From Alphaproteobacteria bacterium (lineage in GTDB: Bacteria; Pseudomonadota; Alphaproteobacteria; Rhizobiales; Devosiaceae), in contig JAHJWO010000041.1 in the NCBI GenBank assembly GCA_018828145.1, forward strand, positions 1-64,000: 64,000 bases of DNA. Direction: 5' to 3'. Numbering within the stretch: position 1 is the first letter of the stretch; each line of letters starts with the position of its first letter. Position numbers and translations under genes: made by a program. The notes below the pieces were generated by a model. It was not told the origin of the DNA. It saw only the letters and a list, made by a program, of their open reading frames with translations, and made no database searches. Shown one piece after another: positions 9,295 through 20,072 of this stretch.

Positions 9295-9432
9295 TCACGG
9301 GCGTCTGGCGCGAACAATCACATTGCCTCGATTGCGGCTGATCCTGGCCTCCCGGGTGTAGCCAATCGCCCCGCTCCGGGCGGCAAAGCCGTTGACGATG
9401 AGGGTGATTCCGGTCCGTAGCCACTGGAGCAT
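9295..9432 (-). CDS. small protein at the end of the guanidine operon (45 aa)
   Basis: Short ORF beginning 17 nt after the atzF stop with a strong GGGAGGA Shine-Dalgarno 8 nt before its ATG. The product starts MLQWLRTGITLIVNGF, is very basic (about ten Arg/Lys in 45 residues) and has one moderately hydrophobic stretch (TGITLIVNGFAA) too short for a confident membrane helix. No family is recognised. The strong ribosome site and tight spacing are the only support; co-transcription with the operon is inferred. Confidence 0.45.
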   Translation of the reverse strand: MLQWLRTGITLIVNGFAARSGAIGYTREARISRNRGNVIVRARRP

Positions 9433-9449
9433 TGCACTGTCCTCCCAGA

Positions 9450-11255
9450 TTACACGCGGCTGGCGAGATAAGCGCGCCAGCCGCCGTGATGGGTGATGTC
9501 CTCGGCACCGGCCAGGGCGTGGGCCTCGCACAGGAATCCGGACACCTGCGATCCATCGTCGAGCGTCACCTTGCCGATGCCGAGCGGCGCCGGAATGCGC
9601 GCCACGAATTGACCGAAGGCCGCGGCCGGCAGTTCCCAGACTTCCACCGCGAGCCCGCTCCCGGCAAAGCCCGGCTCCTGCAGCATGCCAGGCTTGGGCG
9701 GTACTGTGCCCGGCAGGGCGAAGAGCCGGTAGTTGGCGGCCGTCCGGCAGGCCTTGAGCATGCGTCCGCCGGGACCGGTCAGTTCCCTGTTGAGCGGCAT
9801 GCCGGTGAGATGGGCACCGACCACGACGATCGGGACCATGTCGCTGGCCGCAGGGAGTACCTTGCTAGCCTCGGGCAGGCTTGCCGCCTTGTCCCGGCCC
9901 ATGCCACGCGCGCCCTGGCGGTGCAGGGCATCGGCCAGGGGCGCCAGGGCGTTGTCGGTGAAGGCAGGGGCGACCAGGGTCACGCCGGCAGGCAGGTGGT
10001 CGGCGCTGTCGCAGCCGGCGGGAACGGCAAAGGCCGCACAATCGAGCAGGTTGACGAAGTTGGTGTAGCGGCCGAAATGCGAATTGAGCCGGATCGGGTC
10101 GGCCCGCATGGCCTCCACGGTGTAAGTGGTTGGGGAGGTTGGCAGCAGCAGCACATCGGCCTTGGTCCATTCGGCCTCGGTGATGCGGCGCAGTTCTTCG
10201 AGGCGATACTTGCCCTTGAAGGCCTCGACCGCCGTCTTGCCCTTGGCGCCGCCGATGATGGCCCGCACTGTGGGATCGAAATCGGCCTCGTTGCTGGCGA
10301 AGAACTCTTCCACCGCTGCAAGCCGCTCGGCCACCCATGGGCCCTCATAAAGCAGCGCCGCCGCCTCGCGGAACGGGGCGTAGTCGAAGGGGACGGTGGT
10401 GGCGCCGAGGGCGCGGATATTGGTGATGGCGGCATCGTAGAGCCGTTCGACCTCTGCATTGCCGAAGAATTCGCGCTCGGCCCCGTCGAGCACGCCGACG
10501 CGGAGATTGTCGACGGGCAGGCCGGCCCACCTGGCCCTGCGCGAGAATGGATCGGCGGCATCGAAGCCTTCGGCGACCTGGCGGATGGCGACGCCATCGC
10601 CGACCGTGGCGGCAAAGATGGTGACGCAGTCGACACTGCGGCAGGCAGGCACGACGCCGGTATTGGGCAGCAGACCCGGCGTCGGCTTGATGCCGACAAG
10701 GTTGTTGAACATGGCCGGGACGCGGCCCGAGCCGGCGGTGTCGGTGCCCAGCGAGAAGGCCGCAAAGCCGGCCGCGACCGCGACGGCCGAGCCCGAGCTG
10801 GAACCGCCCGAGACATAGTCGGCATCGAAGACCGAACGTGGCGCGCCGTAGGGCGAGCGGGTGCCGTTGAGGCCGGTGGCGAACTGGTCGAGATTGGTCT
10901 TGCCGATGACGATGGCCCCGGCAGCGCGCAGGCGAGCGACCACGGTGGCGTCGGCGGCTGGGTGATAGGCGAAGGCCGGGCACGCCGCCGTGGTCGGCAG
11001 GCCGGCCACATCGATATTGTCCTTGACCGCAAAGGGAATGCCCCAGAGCGGCAGGCTGTTGGGCTCGGGGTGCTGGGTCATCAGCGCCTCGGCGGCGGCG
11101 CGCAGGTCGGCATCACTGGTGGGCGTGATGAAAACCGCCTTGTCGAGCCAGGCGGCGCGGCGTTCGATGACGGCCTCCATCACATCGCGGGGCGTGACCG
11201 TCCGATCGGCATAGAGCGCCTTCAGGGTTGCCAGGTCGAGCATGATCGGCAGCAT
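9450..11255 (-). CDS. atzF: allophanate hydrolase
   Basis: Hydrolyses allophanate to two ammonia and two CO2, the last step of the guanidine pathway here. The 601-aa protein is full length. The amidase-signature domain (about 1-440) has Lys78 in AVKDNID, the GGSSSGSA serine loop (150-157) and the nucleophile Ser176 in TDTAGSGRVPA. A C-terminal domain (about 480-601, from IVVVGAHLTGMPLNREL) is the AtzF-type extension that removes the N-carboxy intermediate. The start ATG overlaps the carboxylase stop by one base (TGATG), so translation is coupled. Confidence 0.93.
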   Translation of the reverse strand: MLPIMLDLATLKALYADRTVTPRDVMEAVIERRAAWLDKAVFITPTSDADLRAAAEALMTQHPEPNSLPLWGIPFAVKDNIDVAGLPTTAACPAFAYHPAADATVVARLRAAGAIVIGKTNLDQFATGLNGTRSPYGAPRSVFDADYVSGGSSSGSAVAVAAGFAAFSLGTDTAGSGRVPAMFNNLVGIKPTPGLLPNTGVVPACRSVDCVTIFAATVGDGVAIRQVAEGFDAADPFSRRARWAGLPVDNLRVGVLDGAEREFFGNAEVERLYDAAITNIRALGATTVPFDYAPFREAAALLYEGPWVAERLAAVEEFFASNEADFDPTVRAIIGGAKGKTAVEAFKGKYRLEELRRITEAEWTKADVLLLPTSPTTYTVEAMRADPIRLNSHFGRYTNFVNLLDCAAFAVPAGCDSADHLPAGVTLVAPAFTDNALAPLADALHRQGARGMGRDKAASLPEASKVLPAASDMVPIVVVGAHLTGMPLNRELTGPGGRMLKACRTAANYRLFALPGTVPPKPGMLQEPGFAGSGLAVEVWELPAAAFGQFVARIPAPLGIGKVTLDDGSQVSGFLCEAHALAGAEDITHHGGWRAYLASRV

Positions 11256-14200
11256 CAGATTTCCTCCAGCACGACGACGACGTCGCCGGTTTTGACATTG
11301 CGGCCCGGGCCGGCCCGCACTTCGCGGACACGGCCGGGGGCATGGGCGGTGACGGTGATTTCCATCTTCATGGATTCGATGATGGCGACGGCGTCGCCCT
11401 CGGCGACTGCGGCGCCGTCCTCGACGAGGATCTTCCAGATATTGCCCGGCACGCCGCTGGCGACGCCGAAGCATCCGAGCGGAATGTCGCCTTCCACCGC
11501 GCCATTGCCGGCATCGTCGGCGATGAAGCTGTCGAGGCCTTCTGCCTTCCAGCGATTGCGCTCCGCATCGAACGCCGCCTGCTGGCTGGTCTTGAAGGCG
11601 GTGATGCTTTCGGCGTTTCTGGCGAGGTCGCTGGCATACTCCGCATAAGAAAATTGCGTCTCCTCGATCCGCAGCGGATAGGCGCCATGCGGGAAGGCGG
11701 CGCGGGCTTCGGTGAGTTCGTCATGGCTGACCGGGAAGAAGCGTATCTGGTCGAAGAAATTGAGCAGCCAGGGCTTGCCCGGTGTGAACTCCGGGGTCGA
11801 ACGCCAGGTGTTCCAGACCTGGATGGTGCGGCCGAAAAGCTGATATCCGCCAGGGCCTTCCATGCCGTAGACGCACATATAGGCGCCCCCGATCCCCACC
11901 GCATTTTCCGGCGTCCAGGTGCGGGCCGGGTTGTATTTGGTGGTGACGAGGCGATGGCGCGGATCCATGGGGGTCGCTACCGGCGCGCCAAGATAGACAT
12001 CGCCTAGGCCAAGCACGAGATAGCTGGCATCGAAGATGGTACGCCTGACGTCGTCGATACTCTCCAAGCCATTGATGCGGCGGATGAATTCGATATTGTC
12101 CGGGCACCAGGGGGCGTTGGGGCGCACCAGTTCCTGGTACTTGCGCATGGCCAGCTGGATGTCCGGATCGTTCCATGACAGGGGCAGGTGGACGATGCGG
12201 CTGGGCACCACGACATCCTCGGCAGCGGGGAGCGAGGCCTCGATTTCGGCCAGCAGGCCGAGCAGGCGGGTGCGCGACAGGCTCGTGCCATCATAGTGGA
12301 TTTGCAGCGAGCGAATGCCAGGCGTCAGGTCGATTGCCGCCAGCATGCTGGCACTTTTCTTCAGTTCTTCCTGCAGCAGATGAACGCGCAGCCGCAGGGC
12401 GATGTCGAGCGACATGTCGCCATATTCGACAAGGAGATTGTCGTCGCCCTGGCGGCGATAGACGACCGGCACCGGACCCGCATCGGATCGCGCCAGGATG
12501 GCCGAACCGGTGTCGAGTTGCGGGCGGCGGATGGCCGGGCCGGCAATGGGATCGTCCGGACGCTCCACGGGATGGAAGCGGATGGTGTCGCCGGGCTTGA
12601 ACTGGCCCATCTTCCAGAGTTCGTCGCGCGCGATCACGGCCGGGCAGACGAAGCCGCCCAGGCTCGGGCCATCGGGCCCCAGGATGATCGGCATGTCGCC
12701 GGTAAAATCGATGGCGCCGACGGCATAGGCGTTGTCATGCAGGTTGGAGGGGTGGAGTCCGGCTTCACCACCGTCAGTGCGGGCCCATTTGGGCGCCGGG
12801 CCGATGAGGCGCACACCCGTGCGGGCGCTGTTGAAGTGAACTTCGTAATCGGTGGCGAAGAGGGTTTCGATATCGCTTTCCTGGAAGAAGTCCGGCGCGC
12901 CATGCGGGCCATAGAGCACGCCGACATTCCAGTGGCGGGTGAGTGGCGCCGGCGCTTCGGCCGGCAGCCCAATTTGGTCTGCGCGTGCAAGGTGCAGGAC
13001 CTGCCCGGCCTTGAGCGCGCCGGTGGCGTGGCCGCCGAACTGGCCGAGGCCGAAGGTGGCGCGGGACCCCAGCACCACTGGCGCGGCAAAGCCGCCCGCC
13101 ACGGCAAGATAGCTGCGCTGGCCCGGTCCATCGACGGCGCCGATGGCCAGTGTCTGGCCGGCACCAATGGCAATGGGGCCGTTGTGGGCGACCGGGACGC
13201 CATCGAGCTTCATCGGCATGGTCGCGCCCGACAGGGCGATGGTGACCGGGGCATGGAAGCGCAGGGTTGGTCCGGCGACTGTCAGCTCCAGCGCCGCCGT
13301 GGTGTCGGCATTGCCGACCAGCCGGTTGGCGTGGCGGAAGCTGTATTCGTCCATCGGGCCGCTGGGCGGCACGCCGACATGCCAGAGACCCAGCCGCCCC
13401 GGCAGTTCCTGAATGCTCGACTGGGCGCCGGGGGCGATGACCTCCACCACGTCGGGCACGAAGACAAAATCCTTCAGCGCGGTGGTGGCCACCTTGCCGC
13501 TGGCGAGCAGGTCGGAGGCGGCGATGGCGCGGAGATAGCTCAGGTTGGTCTCGATGCCACAAATGGACGTGGCCTTGAGCGCGGCGCGCAGATTGGCGAT
13601 GGCGGTGGGGCGGTCGATGCCGGCGACGATGATCTTGGCCAGCATGGGATCGTAGTAGGACGTGACCTCGGTGCCGGTCTCGATCCAGCCATCGACGCGG
13701 ATGTGGTCGGGGAAGCTGACTTCGGTGAGCAGGCCCGCACTGGGCCGGAAATCGGCATGCGGGATTTCGGCATAGAGCCGGACTTCGATAGCCGCACCGT
13801 GCGGAGTGAGCGGACCGGCCTTGGCAATCGGGTCCTCGCCGGCGGCCTGGCGGATCATCCATTCGACCAGATCGATGTCGAACACCGCCTCGGTGACGGG
13901 ATGCTCGACCTGAAGGCGGGTGTTCACTTCGAGGAAGTAGAAGTCCTCGCGGATGGGGTCATAGATGAATTCCACCGTGCCGGCCGAAGCGTATCTGACG
14001 GCTGAACCGAGGTCGGTGGCAGCCTGGTGGAGGCGCGCGCGCACGGCGTCGGAGAGGCCCGGGGCCGGCGTCTCTTCCACCACCTTCTGGTTGCGGCGCT
14101 GCAGCGAGCAATCGCGTTCACCCAGGGCAACCACCCTGCCCTTGCCATCGCCGAAGATCTGCACTTCGACATGGCGCGCCGCGGAGACAAAGCGCTCGAT

Positions 14201-14791
14201 ATAGACGCGCGCATCGCCGAAGCTGGCTGTCGCCGTGCGCTGCACGCTGTCGAAGGCGGCGGCGAGCGCCGCCCTGTCGGCGCAAAGCTGCATGCCGATG
14301 CCCCCGCCCCCCGCCGTGCTCTTGAGCATGACAGGATAGCCGATGGTTTCGGCGGCACTGAGGGCTTCGGCGGCGCTGGTCAGCAGGCCCGTGCCCGGCA
14401 GCAGCGGCACGCCGCTGGCCTTGGCCAGCTCGCGCGCGGTGTGCTTGAGGCCGAAGGCCTCGATATTGGCCGGCGTCGGGCCGATGAAGGTGATGCCGGC
14501 ATCGGCGAGGCGCTGGGCGAAGCCGATATTCTCGGACAGAAAGCCATAACCGGGATGCACCGCCTCGGCGCCGGTGGCCTTGCAGGCGGCAATGACGGCA
14601 TCGACGTCGAGATAGCTGTCGCTTGCCGGGGCGGGGCCGAGGCGGACAGCTTCGTCGGCAAGCTGGACCGCCCGGGTGAAGCGATCGGCATCGGAATAGA
14701 CGGCCACCGAGGCTATGCCCATGCGGCGCAGCGTCTTGATGATGCGCACGGCGATTTCGCCGCGATTGGCGATGAGGACTTTGGTGAACAT
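11255..14791 (-). CDS. guanidine carboxylase (annotated family: urea carboxylase)
   Basis: Biotin-dependent, ATP-consuming carboxylase of 1178 aa. In order: biotin carboxylase domain (about 1-450, KVLIANRGEIAVRIIKT start, STAGGGGIGMQ ATP-grasp loop, FLEVNTRLQVEHPVTE), a KipA/AHS2-type carboxyltransferase part (about 465-770), a KipI/AHS1-type part (about 800-1010), and a C-terminal biotinyl domain with ESMKME, biotin Lys at 1142. Known relatives use urea or guanidine. The guanidine-I riboswitch upstream and the two DUF1989 genes beside it, which deiminate carboxyguanidine, argue for guanidine. The substrate-deciding residue in the carboxyltransferase pocket was not assigned. Confidence 0.88.
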   Translation of the reverse strand: MFTKVLIANRGEIAVRIIKTLRRMGIASVAVYSDADRFTRAVQLADEAVRLGPAPASDSYLDVDAVIAACKATGAEAVHPGYGFLSENIGFAQRLADAGITFIGPTPANIEAFGLKHTARELAKASGVPLLPGTGLLTSAAEALSAAETIGYPVMLKSTAGGGGIGMQLCADRAALAAAFDSVQRTATASFGDARVYIERFVSAARHVEVQIFGDGKGRVVALGERDCSLQRRNQKVVEETPAPGLSDAVRARLHQAATDLGSAVRYASAGTVEFIYDPIREDFYFLEVNTRLQVEHPVTEAVFDIDLVEWMIRQAAGEDPIAKAGPLTPHGAAIEVRLYAEIPHADFRPSAGLLTEVSFPDHIRVDGWIETGTEVTSYYDPMLAKIIVAGIDRPTAIANLRAALKATSICGIETNLSYLRAIAASDLLASGKVATTALKDFVFVPDVVEVIAPGAQSSIQELPGRLGLWHVGVPPSGPMDEYSFRHANRLVGNADTTAALELTVAGPTLRFHAPVTIALSGATMPMKLDGVPVAHNGPIAIGAGQTLAIGAVDGPGQRSYLAVAGGFAAPVVLGSRATFGLGQFGGHATGALKAGQVLHLARADQIGLPAEAPAPLTRHWNVGVLYGPHGAPDFFQESDIETLFATDYEVHFNSARTGVRLIGPAPKWARTDGGEAGLHPSNLHDNAYAVGAIDFTGDMPIILGPDGPSLGGFVCPAVIARDELWKMGQFKPGDTIRFHPVERPDDPIAGPAIRRPQLDTGSAILARSDAGPVPVVYRRQGDDNLLVEYGDMSLDIALRLRVHLLQEELKKSASMLAAIDLTPGIRSLQIHYDGTSLSRTRLLGLLAEIEASLPAAEDVVVPSRIVHLPLSWNDPDIQLAMRKYQELVRPNAPWCPDNIEFIRRINGLESIDDVRRTIFDASYLVLGLGDVYLGAPVATPMDPRHRLVTTKYNPARTWTPENAVGIGGAYMCVYGMEGPGGYQLFGRTIQVWNTWRSTPEFTPGKPWLLNFFDQIRFFPVSHDELTEARAAFPHGAYPLRIEETQFSYAEYASDLARNAESITAFKTSQQAAFDAERNRWKAEGLDSFIADDAGNGAVEGDIPLGCFGVASGVPGNIWKILVEDGAAVAEGDAVAIIESMKMEITVTAHAPGRVREVRAGPGRNVKTGDVVVVLEEI

Positions 14792-14819
14792 GGCCTAGCG
14801 TTCCCCGCAGGCACGGTCG

Positions 14820-14940
14820 GCACCCTCCCCCTTGCGGGGAGTGATGGGGATGGGGATGGGGATGTTTAGGCACGAAGCATCGGGGCCAGTCCACACCCCC
14901 TCCCAGCCTCCCCCGTCGAGGGGGAGGTGCTGTCCGGTGA
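14820..14940. repeat. palindromic repeat remnants plus GGGGAT tandem repeat, copy 2
   Basis: Gap between the carboxylase and the upstream DUF1989 gene. It contains CCCTCCCCCTTGCGGGGAG, about three and a half tandem GGGGAT units (14844-14864) and CCTCCCCCGTCGAGGGGGAGG (14910-14930 region), a perfect hairpin. It belongs to the same repeat style as the copies near 18.1 and 59.4 kb. It could attenuate or stabilise the message within the operon. Confidence 0.6.
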
Positions 14941-14967
14941 ATGCGGTGAGATAGGGCAAAATCGCAC

Positions 14968-15567
14968 TCATTCCGCACCGCCCGAAATCACCACCCGGAT
15001 CGGCGTGGGGTTGAAGCCGTTGCAGGGGTTGTTGACCTGGGGACAGTTGGAGATGACGCAGAGGACGTCCATCTCGGCGACCATTTCGACGTGATCCCCG
15101 GGAGCGGACAGGCCGTCGACGATGGTCATCTGGCCGCTCGGCTCGATGGGGACGTTCATGAAGAAATTGATGTTGGGGACGATGTCGCGCTTGGACATGC
15201 CGTGCCGGGTCACTTCGAGCAGGAAGTTATCGCGGCAGGCGTGGAGATACCTGGTGTCGTGGCCGAAGCGGACAGTGTTGCTCTCACACGAGCAGGCGCC
15301 GGCCGAGGTGTCATGCCGACCGCATGAGTCGGCAGTGACGGTCAGCATCACATTGCCTTCGTTGCTGACGATTTTGGTACCCAGGCCAACATAGGCCTTG
15401 CCGTTGACGCGCAAGGTGTCCTGGCCGCTATAGCGCTCGGAGAAGTCGTCGGCCCTGTAGAACAGCGTATCGACGGCCTGCTGGCCTTCGCTGTCGATGA
15501 TGCGGATGGTCTGGCCCTTGCGGACAAGGCCGGACCAGGGCTTTTCGGCGGGGATGAGATAGTCCAT
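14968..15567 (-). CDS. DUF1989 protein, probable carboxyguanidine deiminase subunit (UAAP1 type)
   Basis: 199-aa DUF1989 protein, formerly named urea carboxylase-associated protein 1. Published work on guanidine-assimilating bacteria showed that the paired DUF1989 proteins form a carboxyguanidine deiminase (CgdAB) giving allophanate and ammonia. Visible family motifs are KGQTIRIIDSEGQQAVDTLF, a Cys-rich GACSCESN, HACRDNFL and VISNCPQVNNPCNGFNPTP; the conserved His and Cys are likely zinc ligands. It follows its 266-aa partner by 12 nt. Which of the two is CgdA and which CgdB I leave open. Confidence 0.85.
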   Translation of the reverse strand: MDYLIPAEKPWSGLVRKGQTIRIIDSEGQQAVDTLFYRADDFSERYSGQDTLRVNGKAYVGLGTKIVSNEGNVMLTVTADSCGRHDTSAGACSCESNTVRFGHDTRYLHACRDNFLLEVTRHGMSKRDIVPNINFFMNVPIEPSGQMTIVDGLSAPGDHVEMVAEMDVLCVISNCPQVNNPCNGFNPTPIRVVISGGAE

Positions 15568-15579
15568 TTTCGCCTCCCC

Positions 15580-16380
15580 TCAAGCCAGCTGCATGGCGTT
15601 GTTTTCAAAGCCGCGCACGGCTTCGGCGGTGGCAGTGCGGCAGAGATCGTCCGCGGCAACAGGCGCGCGGAAGCGCGTCACGGTGACGGGCTGCGGCGCA
15701 TAGTCGGGGCTCGGATCGAGCGGATGCGGGCAATTGGAGAGGGCGATGATCAGGTCCATCTCGGCGCGCAGCTCGACATAGTCGCCGGCGACGCGCAGCT
15801 CGTCGCGCCAGATGAAATTGCCTTCAGCATCGACCCGCACGGGCGCGAAGAGGGTCAGCGCCGAGGGGATGTCGCGGCGGTCGAGGCCGAGCTTGCCGGC
15901 GACGAGGATGAAATTGTCGCGCGTGTTGCGCTGGTCACCGGCATATCTGGCGGCATTGGAGGCGGCGGTGGAGCCGCCGACCAGCGCGTCATGGGCCGTG
16001 GAGGCGGCTTCGGTCACCGAGAAGAGCACCCGGCCCATATCGGTGAACAGCACCCTGCCCCGGGCGATGGCGGTGGTCCACTGCACCTTGACGGTATCGT
16101 GGAGGTTGAGGCGCTCGGAGGTGTCGGCGGACGACCAGGCCACCAGCGACACGGCCGAAGGTCCATGGTCCTGCGCGATGCGGATGGTGTCGCCGGCCTT
16201 GAGCGCGGTCGACCAGTACCAGCCGCCTGGAATGGTCTCGACATGAATCGGGGCGGCAATCGGCGTGGCGGGAATGGCGCTCGGGCCGGGCAAGGCCCTG
16301 GGGGCATTCTGCAGGCCCTTGCGCTGGTGTTCCTCGTAGCGCGCGCGGTCGGCGGCGATCTGATCCGGGGTGCGGCTCAT
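15580..16380 (-). CDS. DUF1989 protein, probable carboxyguanidine deiminase subunit (UAAP2 type)
   Basis: 266-aa DUF1989 protein, formerly urea carboxylase-associated protein 2. The core is paralogous to the 199-aa neighbour: KAGDTIRIAQDHGPSAVSLV corresponds to KGQTIRIIDSEGQQAVDTLF, and IALSNCPHPLDPSP to VISNCPQVNNPCNG. It has an extra N-terminal arm with YEEHQRKGLQNAPRALPG, usual for this subfamily. The start overlaps the ATPase stop by 4 nt (ATGA). Together with its neighbour it should convert carboxyguanidine to allophanate. Confidence 0.85.
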   Translation of the reverse strand: MSRTPDQIAADRARYEEHQRKGLQNAPRALPGPSAIPATPIAAPIHVETIPGGWYWSTALKAGDTIRIAQDHGPSAVSLVAWSSADTSERLNLHDTVKVQWTTAIARGRVLFTDMGRVLFSVTEAASTAHDALVGGSTAASNAARYAGDQRNTRDNFILVAGKLGLDRRDIPSALTLFAPVRVDAEGNFIWRDELRVAGDYVELRAEMDLIIALSNCPHPLDPSPDYAPQPVTVTRFRAPVAADDLCRTATAEAVRGFENNAMQLA

Positions 16381-17198
16381 GGATTGTCTCCTTGTGGCGC
16401 CGGGTCGTCCTGGCTGAGGCCCAAAGGAATGGCCGGGTCGTCCCGGTCGGGGGCAAAGAGGGAGGGCTCGCCAGCGATGCGCGGCGGCCAGATGTAGATG
16501 TCGCGGCTAAGCAGCGAGCCGTAACGCTCGCGCTCTTCCGGGCGGTCGCGCGGACGCTCGAAGGCGATGACGCGGGTGCCCAGGGTAAAGGCCTCGCGCA
16601 TGTCGTGGGTGACCATGACGACAGTCAGCTCGGTCTCGTGCCACAGCCGCTTCATCAGCACGTGGATGTCGGCGCGGATGCCGGGGTCGAGCGCGCCGAA
16701 GGGCTCGTCGAGCAGGAGGACCTTGGGCTTCATGATCAGCGCCTGCGCCAGAGCCAGCCGCTGCTGCATGCCGCCGGAGAGCTGGGCGGGATATTTGGTT
16801 TCGGAACCAGCCAGGCCCACCTCGGCGATCAGCGCCATGGCTTCGTCCACGGCATTGCGGCGCGCCGCGCCGAAGAGCCGTGCCGCCACGGGGCTCCTGA
16901 ACTCCTTGCCCAGCAGCACATTGCCCAGCACGGTCAGGTGCGGGAACACCGAATAGCGCTGGAATACCACGCCGCGGTCGGGACCGGGCTCGGCGACGAG
17001 CGGCACGCCATCCATGGTGATGGTGCCTTGGGTGGGGGCTTCCTCGCCCAGGAGAAGCTTGAGGAAGGTGGTCTTGCCGCAGCCGGAGGGGCCGACCAGG
17101 GCGACGAAGGCGCGCGAGGCAATGGTCAGGCTGATCTTCTCGAGGACGATCTGGTCGCCATATTCCTTCCAGACCTTGTCGAAGACGATGGTGCTCAT
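16377..17198 (-). CDS. ABC transporter ATP-binding protein, guanidine importer
   Basis: 273-aa NitT/TauT-type ATPase. Walker A GPSGCGKTTFLK, signature LSGGMQQRLALAQAL and Walker B LLLDEPFGALDP are intact, with the MVTHDMREAF switch His. It overlaps the permease stop by one base and the 266-aa DUF1989 gene by 4 nt. A C-terminal extension (GSLLSRDIYIWPPRIAGEPS) beyond the ATPase core is typical of the ATPases annotated as urea carboxylase-related. Substrate is inferred as guanidine from the riboswitch. Confidence 0.85.
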   Translation of the reverse strand: MSTIVFDKVWKEYGDQIVLEKISLTIASRAFVALVGPSGCGKTTFLKLLLGEEAPTQGTITMDGVPLVAEPGPDRGVVFQRYSVFPHLTVLGNVLLGKEFRSPVAARLFGAARRNAVDEAMALIAEVGLAGSETKYPAQLSGGMQQRLALAQALIMKPKVLLLDEPFGALDPGIRADIHVLMKRLWHETELTVVMVTHDMREAFTLGTRVIAFERPRDRPEERERYGSLLSRDIYIWPPRIAGEPSLFAPDRDDPAIPLGLSQDDPAPQGDNP

Positions 17199-18013
17199 CA
17201 GCGTACCCCCAGATTGGACCAGGGGAAGACGACGATGCGCAGCCGATCGAGCGCGAAGCTGGTGATGACCGCGAGCAGCGTGATCCAGGCCACATAGGGA
17301 AAGATCACATCCATCGAGAGATAGCGGCGAACGAGGAAGATGCGGTAGCCAAGGCCGCTGTCGGCCGAAATGGCTTCGGCGGCAATGAGGAAGAGCCAGG
17401 CGGGCCCCATCTGGAGGCGCAGGCTGGTGATCAACCGCGGCAGGATTTGCGGCAGCACGACGCGCAAAGCGATCTGCCAGGAGGAGCCGCCCAGCGTCTC
17501 GGCCTTGGTGATCTGTTCCTTGGGCAGCTCGATGACCCGCAGGGCCAGGTCGCGGATCATGGCCGGGGCGACGCCGATAACGATCAGGGTGATCTTGGCG
17601 GTTTCACCCAGGCCCAGCACGATGAAGAGGATGGGCAGCAAGGCCAGCGGCGGGACCATGGAAATGGTGGCGATGAAGGGCGCGAGCAGCGCCCGGACAT
17701 AGGGCAGCATGCCGACAAGCATGCCGAAGACCAGAGCGATAAGCGTGGAAATGCCCAGCGCCGAGAACAGACGGACGAGGCTCGCCGCCGTATCGGACCA
17801 CAGGATGAGTTCGCCGGTGCGCGGATCGGGAATGAAGGCCAGGCGGTTGACGGCGTCGACCATGGTCTGCAGTGCCGGCAGCAGCTTGTCGCTGGGATTG
17901 TCCGCCAACCGCGCGGCCGAGCCCACGCCATAGGCGATGACCAGCAGCACGAAGGGCGCCAGCATCAGCAGCGTGGCGACGGCCGGCGATGGTTTGGTAT
18001 TGATCCAGCGCAT
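17198..18013 (-). CDS. ABC transporter permease, guanidine importer
   Basis: 271-aa NitT/TauT-family permease with about six membrane segments (for example PAVATLLMLAPFVLLVIAYG near the N-terminus). The coupling loop reads AETLGGSSWQIALRVVLPQI. The ATG at 18013 is chosen because upstream codons run into the palindromic repeat 18046-18172. It presumably forms a homodimer, since only one permease gene is present. It is separated from its binding-protein gene by the repeat. Confidence 0.85.
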   Translation of the reverse strand: MRWINTKPSPAVATLLMLAPFVLLVIAYGVGSAARLADNPSDKLLPALQTMVDAVNRLAFIPDPRTGELILWSDTAASLVRLFSALGISTLIALVFGMLVGMLPYVRALLAPFIATISMVPPLALLPILFIVLGLGETAKITLIVIGVAPAMIRDLALRVIELPKEQITKAETLGGSSWQIALRVVLPQILPRLITSLRLQMGPAWLFLIAAEAISADSGLGYRIFLVRRYLSMDVIFPYVAWITLLAVITSFALDRLRIVVFPWSNLGVR

Positions 18014-18045
18014 GGTTTTTGCTCGGACGGTTGGTGACCTTCGAA

Positions 18046-18166
18046 GCCCCTCATCCGCCCTTCGGGCACCTTCTCCCACGGCGGGGAGAAGGGGATGGAA
18101 CCGGGAGGCCTCAGGCGGCCCTTCTCCCCTCGTGGGAGAAGGTGGCGCGTAGCGCCGGATGAGGGG
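18046..18166. repeat. long imperfect palindrome between binding-protein and permease genes, copy 3
   Basis: Left arm CCCCTCATCCG-CCCTTCGGGC-ACCTTCTCCCAC (from about 18048) is mirrored by right arm GTGGGAGAAGGT-GGCGCGTAGCGC-CGGATGAGGGG (to about 18166), each arm carrying its own inner hairpin. The whole could fold into one long stem in the operon transcript. Same repeat family as copies near 59.5 and 63.2 kb. Confidence 0.75.
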
Positions 18167-18167
18167 G

Positions 18168-19241
18168 CTACAGCGCCCCTTCAGCCGCCATCTGCATGTA
18201 TTCTGCGGTGAAGCGCAGCTTCACATTGGCGCTGTCGCCCAGCACCGTGCCGTCGGGCAGCTCGATGCCGATGACGTCGGCCGAGGGGGCGCCGCTTCCG
18301 AGCAGGCCCTTGTCGAAGAGGAAGGTGCGCACCTTGTCCATGGTGGTGGCGAGATCGGGCGAGGTGGTGAAGGTCACGGCCTCGGCGGCGGTGGGGAAGA
18401 GCTTGGTGGCGGCGAGTTGGGCTTCAAAGCCGGCCTGGTCGGTGCCCGAGGCGGCGCCCATGGCCTCGCGCGCGGCGGCGCCTTCGGGCGTATCGGCCGT
18501 CATGATCGCCATGGTGTCATACCAGATGCCGACCAGCGCCTTGCCGAAATCGGGATTGGCCTCCAGCACCTCGGTATTGGCGACCATCATGTCGATGATC
18601 TCGCCGGGGATCTGGGCGCTGTCGAATACCTTGGTGGCGTCGGGGAGCGCCAGGATTTCCGAAACCATCGGGTTCCAGGTGACCATGGCGGTGACGTCGG
18701 CGGTCTGGAAGGCGCCGACCATGTCGGGATCGGAGGTATTGACGACGCTGACATCACGCTCGGTCATGCCGACGCTTTCGAGCGCCCGGGCGAGCAGGTA
18801 GTGCGACACCGAGAATTCGACGAGGTTGACCGACTGGCCGGCGATGGAAGCCAGGTCGCCCGCGCCCTTGAGGATGACCGCGTCATTGCCGGCCGAGAAA
18901 TCGCCGATGACCACGGCGGTGGTATCCACGCCACCGGCGGAGGGGATGGACAAGCCATCCATGTTGGTCAGCGTCACCGCGTCATAGGCGCCGGCGGTGT
19001 ACTGATTGATCGATTCCACATAGTCGTTGAACTGGGTGACCTCGATGGTAATGCCATACTGGTCGGCCCATTTCTGGACGATGCCGGCGTCGGCGGCGTA
19101 GCCCCAGGGCATCCAGCCGACATAGATCGACCAGGCGACCTTGAAATCGGTCTTGGCCTGGGCCAGCGCCAAGCTGGATGTGCCGGTGGCGAGGGCCATC
19201 GAGAGGGCGGCTACGGTTGCAATCCTGGTCAGAAACGTCAT
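18168..19241 (-). CDS. ABC transporter substrate-binding protein, guanidine importer
   Basis: 357-aa periplasmic binding protein of the NitT/TauT (SsuA-like) fold. Sec signal peptide MTFLTRIATVAALSMALATG with cleavage after the following LALA, before QAKTDFK. The mature start DFKVAWSIYVGWMPWGYAAD and NDYVESINQYTAGAYDA are typical of the proteins annotated as urea carboxylase-related binding proteins. The ATG at 19241 is preceded by AAGGGG. It is the first gene after the guanidine-I riboswitch and terminator, so its expression should depend directly on guanidine. Confidence 0.88.
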   Translation of the reverse strand: MTFLTRIATVAALSMALATGTSSLALAQAKTDFKVAWSIYVGWMPWGYAADAGIVQKWADQYGITIEVTQFNDYVESINQYTAGAYDAVTLTNMDGLSIPSAGGVDTTAVVIGDFSAGNDAVILKGAGDLASIAGQSVNLVEFSVSHYLLARALESVGMTERDVSVVNTSDPDMVGAFQTADVTAMVTWNPMVSEILALPDATKVFDSAQIPGEIIDMMVANTEVLEANPDFGKALVGIWYDTMAIMTADTPEGAAAREAMGAASGTDQAGFEAQLAATKLFPTAAEAVTFTTSPDLATTMDKVRTFLFDKGLLGSGAPSADVIGIELPDGTVLGDSANVKLRFTAEYMQMAAEGAL

Positions 19242-19264
19242 CTCAATTCCCCTTTGCGTTCTCA

Positions 19265-19303
19265 CAAAAAGGGATTGGGCAGAAACCATCGCGCCAATCC
19301 CTT
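19265..19303 (-). terminator. intrinsic terminator of the guanidine riboswitch
   Basis: Minus-strand 10-bp stem AAGGGATTGG/CCAATCCCTT (arms 19303-19294 and 19278-19269) with a 15-nt loop, followed by a T-run (A tract at 19266-19270 on the plus strand). It lies about 10 nt after the aptamer and about 25 nt before the first gene, the position expected of an expression platform. Confidence 0.85.
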
Positions 19304-19311
19304 GGCTATCG

Positions 19312-19416
19312 AGGTCTCCCGGGCTTTTGTCCCGCCGTGCGTCCGGCCGGATGTCTCCCGCCCGGTGGCAGCTCTCGGACCAGACGCGCCGTGCAGCGCC
19401 GGAACCCTAGCTCCTT
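19312..19416 (-). promoter_or_regulatory. guanidine-I (ykkC) riboswitch aptamer
   Basis: Minus strand carries the guanidine-I consensus blocks in order: GAGCTAGGGTTCCGGC (19413-19398), CTGGTCCGAGAGC (just after), and CACGGCGGGACAAAAG followed by CCCGGGAGA (ending near 19313). The invariant CUAGGGUUCCG, CUGGUCCGAGAG and AAAAGCCCGGGAGA segments match the class without an obvious gap. Guanidine binding is expected to relieve the terminator that follows and switch on the operon. This is the strongest single clue to the pathway. Confidence 0.95.
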
Positions 19417-19742
19417 ACTCGGTTCAGAAGGAGCAAGCGGCGTGCCAATTGGAAAGGCGAGCGGAATCAATGATTTACGGATATAACGCCGCGACGCAAC
19501 TGCGCAATATCTGGGCAAGGCGATGCAGTTCGGCTAAAATTTGGGCAGGACTCCGGGACGCGGTCGGGCAGCGAAACCGTGGATTTCGGGGCGCTTCTGC
19601 GGTGCGGATGGTCTTGGTGCGCCGTGTTTTTGGTGGGAGGTGTCGATTCTGCAGCGGCCATGTATGCAAGGCGGCGTGGCCTGATCATTTATCAGGCAGA
19701 TGCGACCGGGACGGCAGCGGGGGCACATGGTAATGTGGGGAC
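19417..19742. other. non-coding stretch between riboswitch and tRNA-Gln
   Basis: About 325 nt with no recognisable gene on either strand. It should contain the promoter of the guanidine operon (minus strand) and the 3' region of tRNA-Gln. I could not assign -35/-10 elements with confidence. Confidence 0.5.
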
Positions 19743-19817
19743 TGGCTGGGGCGCCAGGATTCGAACCTGGGAATGCCGGTACCAAAAACCGGTGCCTTAC
19801 CGCTTGGCGACGCCCCA
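19743..19817 (-). tRNA. tRNA-Gln (UUG)
   Basis: 75-nt tRNA with encoded CCA. Acceptor stem TGGGGCG/CGCCCCA, D arm GCCAAGCGGTAAGGC, anticodon arm ACCGGTTTTTGGTACCGG with anticodon TTG, and TTCGAAT in the T loop. The sequence follows E. coli tRNA-Gln(UUG) closely. Confidence 0.95.
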
Positions 19818-19995: not shown

Positions 19996-20072
19996 CGGAG
20001 TATAGCGCAGCCTGGTAGCGCACCTGCTTCGGGAGCAGGGGGTCGAGTGTTCGAATCACTCTACTCCGACCA
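19996..20072 (+). tRNA. tRNA-Pro (CGG)
   Basis: 77-nt tRNA with encoded CCA. Acceptor stem CGGAGTA/TACTCCG, D loop with GCCTGGTAGC, anticodon arm CTGCTTCGGGAGCAG giving anticodon CGG, and GTTCGAATC T loop. Oriented divergently from tRNA-Gln and followed by a terminator. Confidence 0.95.

Follow-up and report, generated by a model that had tools for sequence, protein, structure and literature searches.

Two classes of putative guanidine riboswitch in a predicted guanidine assimilation operon of an alphaproteobacterium, one of them within the coding sequence of a transporter ATPase

We analyzed a stretch of 64,000 nucleotides (the window; contig JAHJWO010000041.1 of assembly GCA_018828145.1) from a soil alphaproteobacterium of the family Devosiaceae, by kinship a Devosia, and in particular an operon of seven genes, several of which carry "urea" annotations. 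We estimate a probability of roughly 80% that this operon serves the assimilation of guanidine nitrogen and is controlled by two guanidine riboswitches, each of a different class. A Guanidine-I (ykkC) aptamer is located in the operon leader, and an element resembling Guanidine-II (mini-ykkC) is located inside the coding sequence of the importer ATPase, just upstream of the first enzyme gene. The former was part of a prediction made previously from this DNA alone (the original prediction), from which the latter was absent. The guanidine pathway itself is already known, and the coding-embedded element is the part of the finding most worth pursuing.

In the proposed pathway, the ATP-binding cassette (ABC) importer would take up guanidine, the carboxylase would convert it to carboxyguanidine, the pair of DUF1989 proteins would deiminate carboxyguanidine to allophanate, and the allophanate hydrolase would release ammonia. 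The Guanidine-I riboswitch would gate the whole transcript. We infer ligand binding and the direction of both switches, the substrate of the importer and of the carboxylase, and growth on guanidine from the sequence.

The carboxylase is homologous over its full length (residues 2-1175) to the carboxylase part of the Kluyveromyces lactis urea amidolyase (3va7, 5i8i). According to the available text of PMC11410670, a guanidine carboxylase has Asp at the position of K. lactis 1584 and Asp, not Asn, at that of 1330. In the alignment with 5i8i, N1330 of the K. lactis enzyme faces D695 and D1584 faces D931; thus, both published residues are present, and the window carboxylase differs from the K. lactis urea amidolyase in having Asp instead of Asn at the first position. 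The original prediction had proposed this active-site alignment as a check, and the outcome favours guanidine. For control, the equivalent positions of the TIGR02712 profile (701 for K. lactis 1330 and 956 for 1584) were inspected in 32 of the 35 places above cut-off in a 249-genome sample of the phylum. The residue equivalent to 1330 was of the Asp type in 24 loci and of the Asn type in eight. Both DUF1989 genes were present in all 24 Asp-type loci and in none of the eight Asn-type loci, and a Guanidine-I match was found in 20 and none of them, respectively. All six genomes with two copies carried one of each type. The 80 named loci, which were picked by similarity to an Asp-type query, were all of the Asp type, and 69 had a Guanidine-I match (that of L109 far off and on the other strand; some of the remaining loci are incomplete).

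Two further genes bear on the substrate. A urease alpha subunit is encoded elsewhere in the genome (contig C8, 197 bits), which means that the earlier statement that no urease is nearby holds locally but not for the genome, and a Guanidine-II match precedes a SugE/Gdx-type small multidrug resistance (SMR) exporter gene on contig C20. The annotated function, a urea carboxylase or urea amidolyase operon with urea as the substrate, agrees with the NCBIfam equivalog names, and some urea activity would be compatible with the sequence. We reject it as scarcely tenable, since the residues, the partner genes (the DUF1989 pair and Guanidine-I follow the Asp type and are missing from every Asn-type locus) and the genomic context, with a urease already present, all speak against it. 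The operon's substrate is most likely guanidine, and the "urea" labels (TIGR02712, TIGR03427, UAAP1/2) are probably wrong here, as had been proposed, because of the Asp residues, the sorting of the DUF1989 genes and Guanidine-I with the Asp type, and the urease and SugE/Gdx genes elsewhere. Likewise, the substrate of the ABC binding protein is probably guanidine. Two different DUF1989 subunits, as expected of a carboxyguanidine deiminase (CgdAB), are encoded in the operon and score above their cut-offs, making UAAP1 and UAAP2 the probable two subunits of such an enzyme.

The Guanidine-I riboswitch had been placed on the minus strand by the original prediction, with a covariance-model search proposed as a check. 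Rfam cmscan identified the aptamer there with a score above the gathering threshold (Table 1). It is the sole RF00442 match in a search of the genome, and no other ykkC-type family was reported by the Rfam search at this position. The element is thus assigned to Guanidine-I by its covariance score, and binding of guanidine rather than of ppGpp or PRPP is predicted.

Downstream of the aptamer, three strands of the expression platform are conserved in relatives: helix A, hairpin a:b and, less clearly, the Shine-Dalgarno (SD) strand. Helix A was paired in 96.0% of 579 alignment cells with no both-side change, and hairpin a:b in 96.8% of 493 cells with four both-side changes. The SD helix, b:c, was paired in 76.6% of cells, and a slide by -1 scored better. 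Hairpin a:b is the terminator of the original prediction; the conserved hairpin and its U run are there, but termination is only one reading of them. A consensus terminator scan (loop limit 8) did not list the hairpin, and a T run of at least four is absent after it in 11 of 51 homologous leaders. The missing T runs would suit an anti-sequestor rather than a terminator, in which the 3' strand of the hairpin has two alternative pairing partners, the upstream strand and the SD of the binding-protein gene; through this alternation, Guanidine-I would act on translation. The SD is indeed hidden in the unconstrained leader fold, and it became freer by more than 0.1 in 17 of the 51 leaders when the aptamer 3' end was locked, with the opposite seen in one. 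However, mean SD accessibility stayed low either way (0.07 against 0.15), the SD helix is the least consistent of the three as described above, and Guanidine-I acts on transcription according to the available text of the guanidine-pathway literature. We consider the anti-sequestor a serious possibility that falls somewhat short of even odds; it concerns the platform only and is compatible with an operon under two riboswitches.

The second element of the window lies wholly in the ATPase reading frame, 6 bases 5' of the SD sequence AAGGAGA of the first DUF1989 gene and 19 bases before the ATGA junction at which the ATPase stop codon overlaps the DUF1989 start codon. Together with its 3' flank, it makes up the final ~23 codons of the ATPase gene. 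Like RF01068, it has two hairpins with ACGR loops (both ACGA in the window), a linker, a downstream SD and covariation across relatives, and the five-pair core of P1 is intact. It differs from RF01068 in its position inside the coding sequence of the upstream gene and in its score of 31.5 bits (E = 0.0014 in 4.8 kb, 3e-4 for the genome). Because this score is under the 32-bit cut-off, we describe it as an element that is predicted to work like Guanidine-II and to bind the ligand, homologous to the elements of relatives that pass the cut-off.

In the Rfam search, 14 of 17 relatives' loci contained Guanidine-II at 32 bits or more, by position nearly all at the 3' end of the ATPase gene. A model, R1, was built from 15 Guanidine-II copies, including that of the window and its kin, and searched over all loci in the set. 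After removal of two duplicates, 56 distinct loci had Guanidine-II next to the ATPase gene. The element was located wholly inside the ATPase open reading frame (ORF) in 42 of these, straddled the stop codon in six and lay beyond it in eight. The embedded copies were read in one frame in 36 loci and in another frame in six loci of the Bradyrhizobium type.

It could be argued that the match is a repeated peptide motif of the ATPase (DRDDP ... QDDP) and that the hairpins merely follow from the coding sequence; after all, the window copy is in frame over its whole length, and its score falls slightly short of the cut-off. The occurrence of the same RNA in another frame, across the stop codon or beyond it is at odds with this explanation, and so is the codon usage. 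We compared 33 equal-length embedded loci in 518 pairs with an ATPase codon identity of at most 75%, the pairs not being independent of one another. Where the residue was the same, the codons were identical in 3621 of 3693 cases (98%) in the stems, as compared to 59% both in the linker (996 of 1677) and in the ATPase body (52095 of 88390). Fourfold degenerate sites were identical in 1543 of 1543 cases in the stems, versus 841 of 1329 in the linker and 31733 of 56285 in the body. None of 216 ten-codon stretches of the ATPase body reached 0.98, and the best reached 0.88.

Covariation was examined in 52 aligned copies (49 distinct), in an alignment fitted to the model. The stems were paired in 96.6% of 582 cells, versus 16-57% for structures slid along the alignment, and 21 both-side changes were counted as compared to 6.8 in shuffles, none of 500 shuffles being as high. 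Covariation was also seen in an outer P1 pair (columns 3 and 18) that had not been part of the model. In L053 and L054, both sides of one P1 pair have changed, altering Arg to Gln and Pro to Leu, so that the compensatory changes replace residues rather than preserve them. The peptide explanation, to which we give very little credence, is rejected on account of the frame changes and the synonymous-site constraint. There is RNA-level constraint within the ATPase coding sequence across relatives.

According to the available text of PMC7544219, guanidinium is proposed to make the two hairpins of Guanidine-II kiss, which releases the anti-SD from the SD. In the operon, the linker would pair with the SD of the first DUF1989 gene when guanidine is lacking; with guanidine, the two hairpins would engage each other and free the SD, and the enzymes would therefore be made when guanidine is present. 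The linker-SD pairing energy was -8.45 kcal/mol for a locus's own partners and -7.70 kcal/mol for permuted ones, with 15 of 5000 permutations as low, in a test that ignores shared ancestry. The folds of L045, L048 and L084 contain the linker-SD helix; in L053 and in the window, the minimum-energy fold lacks it.

Several observations weigh against the two-riboswitch reading, in addition to the composition of the R1 training set and the neglect of ancestry in the permutation test. Four of the 24 Asp-type loci of the phylum sample (L180, L192, L193 and L194) have no Guanidine-I match, L193 having a Guanidine-II match. L090, L110, L111, L121 and L128 have the ATPase gene but no Guanidine-II there, as judged by the hairpin finder and R1. 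The position of the element inside an ORF may be passive. The window copy itself, below the Rfam gathering score, has A.C mismatches in outer P1 and in P2, and the strict hairpin finder missed it, as it did L045, L049 and L057. It folds little better than shuffled sequences (z -1.09, 27 of 200 as good) and worst of the five copies tested; its minimum-energy fold lacks P1, which is present in the centroid. The window copy may thus be decaying. The low score, the two mismatches and the poor z would all fit a Guanidine-II that is genuine in the family but without function in the window strain, where Guanidine-I alone would control the operon. Yet the core of P1 and the two ACGR loops have been preserved, and the fold of L045 (z -3.17) contains P1, P2 and the linker-SD helix in spite of the same P2 mismatch. 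We regard a non-functional copy as unlikely and prefer control by both riboswitches.

As to how the element came to be translated, three reading frames are open across it in 40 of the 56 loci and two in 16, in total 90% of all frames, and chance read-through is therefore easy. For this reason, the idea that embedding as such was selected for was not borne out. In 28 of the 42 embedded loci, the ATPase gene ends with an ATGA on the start codon of the next gene, which suggests translational coupling, although stop-start overlaps of this kind are common in operons. Probably, the ATPase ORF became extended into the element in some lineages, terminating thereafter at the start codon that follows. 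More tentatively, and at well below even odds, we propose that in Devosia and its Rhizobium and Bradyrhizobium relatives the riboswitch is translated as protein. Ribosomes finishing the ATPase would cross Guanidine-II, such that translation of the importer opens the switch and hands ribosomes to the enzyme gene; the ATPase tail would be the shadow of the RNA in two frames, and a small protein (see below) might be a further part of the system. If so, enzyme output would depend on both guanidine and importer translation.

As far as the available text of the sources goes, this part is not new: earlier publications cover the pathway as well as the residue criterion and the link to the riboswitch. 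Operons with gca, cgdA/B and atzF and a Guanidine-I riboswitch are described for Raoultella, Erwinia, Klebsiella and Vreelandella boliviensis in the available text of PMC12186494 and PMC12508155. The window operon shares with them the genes, the importer, the Guanidine-I leader and a second, class-II switch within the operon. In the same text, Guanidine-II is located, in some operons, before gca (in the cgdB-gca intergenic region of V. boliviensis), whereas in the window it is inside the ATPase gene, before the deiminase genes. A place like that published for Vreelandella was seen with the hairpin finder in more distant loci, between the second DUF1989 gene and the carboxylase in L108, L115-L117, L120 and L123, and directly 5' of the carboxylase, at the locus end, in L114. 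Unlike the operons as published there, the window operon has no further gene such as mgdH/mgdL between the carboxylase and the allophanate hydrolase. In the literature searched, outside which the primary Guanidine-I, Guanidine-II and pathway papers lie, we recognized no description of Guanidine-II within a coding sequence. The B12 riboswitch of Mycobacterium tuberculosis ppe2, as presented in the available text of PMC11260477, shares with the window the combination of a riboswitch and a stop-start overlap (AUGA). It controls a translated upstream ORF that relays to the next gene, whereas here the element itself forms the end of the coding sequence of an ABC ATPase gene.

These results would correct the "urea" annotations of the importer, the carboxylase and the two DUF1989 proteins in Devosia and extend predicted guanidine nitrogen use to this genus. 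The coding-embedded riboswitch offers a testable case both of one DNA stretch under RNA and protein constraint and of ribosomes crossing an aptamer. Should the coding overlap prove functional, translation of importer and enzyme would be tied by a sensor of their own substrate.

Table 1. Features of the operon and its surroundings, with two features from contig C20 (L200) of the same genome. Positions refer to the window unless a locus is named.
Feature	Position	Strand	Match or basis	Remark
ORF of 45 residues, unannotated	9295..9432	-		directly 3' of allophanate hydrolase; purine-rich stretch upstream
Allophanate hydrolase with C-terminal domain	9450..11255	-	TIGR02713 797.5 bits (cut-off 511.05); PF01425, PF21986	
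Predicted guanidine carboxylase	11255..14791	-	TIGR02712 1804.6 bits (cut-off 1303.85)	annotated urea carboxylase
Dispersed palindromic repeat	14796-14960	-		between second DUF1989 gene and carboxylase
DUF1989 protein UAAP2	14968..15567	-	TIGR03424 328.4 bits (cut-off 284.7)	
DUF1989 protein UAAP1	15580..16380	-	TIGR03425 264.8 bits (cut-off 205.95); PF09347	
ATGA overlap	16380-16377	-		ATPase stop / first DUF1989 start
SD AAGGAGA of first DUF1989 gene	16387..16393	-	sequence	
Guanidine-II (mini-ykkC) element	16400..16449	-	RF01068 31.5 bits (gathering 32)	inside ATPase coding sequence
Guanidine-II P1 core	16446-16433	-		
Guanidine-II linker, anti-SD-like CCTTTG	16427-16422	-		
Guanidine-II P2	16413-16400	-		
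ABC ATPase	16377..17198	-	PF00005 114.5 bits	
ABC permease	17198..18079	-	PF00528 74.3 bits	listed start GTG
Palindromic repeat-like stretch	18050-18163			between binding-protein and permease genes
ABC substrate-binding protein	18168..19241	-	TIGR03427 540.7 bits (cut-off 333.9)	annotated "urea"
Expression platform	19246..19316	-		helix A, hairpin a:b, SD strand ~19256-19246
Hairpin a:b, then U run	19303-19294 with 19278-19269	-		conserved; originally called terminator
Helix A	19316-19310 with 19291-19284	-		small hairpin between; conserved in relatives
Guanidine-I (ykkC) aptamer	19314..19421	-	RF00442 73.3 bits (gathering 63), E 4e-11 in window	operon leader
tRNA gene	19746-19817	-		
tRNA gene	19996-20069	+		
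SugE/Gdx-type SMR exporter gene	L200 1362-1673	-	134.4 bits (cut-off 126)	
Guanidine-II before SMR gene	L200 1693-1738	-	32.5 bits	

The profile matches placed all seven genes on the minus strand in the order that had been predicted: importer, two DUF1989 genes, carboxylase and allophanate hydrolase. The overlapping ORFs of the original prediction were found at the ATGA junction and between the carboxylase and the allophanate hydrolase (TGATG), whereas gaps of ~176 bases 5' of the carboxylase and ~88 bases 3' of the binding-protein gene separate other members. The true start of the permease may be further in than the listed GTG. The larger gap contains the dispersed palindromic repeat, which gave 43 matches in a search of the genome, the query included; in L045, the corresponding gap is only ~10 bases. 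Rfam matches with microRNA names in the window were discarded, being far below their cut-offs and located on palindromic repeats, including the repeat-like stretch between the binding-protein and permease genes. Two tRNA genes are located directly upstream of Guanidine-I.

The small ORF that follows the allophanate hydrolase gene is possibly a small protein of the operon. Of 63 distinct loci, 21 have an ORF with the motif [LI]xxG[LFI]xAR in this position, and all 21 belong to the 33 loci with an allophanate hydrolase at least 70% identical; none of 660 control windows inside allophanate hydrolase genes has one. This motif was drawn from part of the same loci and loosened after more members had been seen, and the counts are therefore not independent of it; a first, stricter motif was found in 12 of the 63 loci and in 1 of the 660 control windows. 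The ORF had no NCBIfam match, and Pfam gave only a sub-threshold match to DUF202, in two of nine members.

The distribution of the operon in the genus is patchy. TIGR02712 scored above cut-off in 12 of the 73 genomes of the genus sample, including the genome studied here; in two more, the match was split at a contig end (G027) or broken (G038). In the latter genome, with a completeness of 84%, several operon genes are broken into frames (L057), perhaps by sequencing error. The layout differs in L044, L047 and L051, where the DUF1989 pair and the allophanate hydrolase are apart from the importer-carboxylase block. In other Devosia, a second Guanidine-I was observed near the carboxylase locus, at 12358-12464 (+) in L044, 3958-4064 (-) in L047 and 13922-14028 (+) in L052. 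The next two genes after it in L044 and L052 encode an SBP_bac_5 binding protein and a metallo-beta-lactamase-fold hydrolase, the hydrolases of the two loci being weakly alike, and these genes could possibly serve the uptake and hydrolysis of a guanidine-yielding compound.

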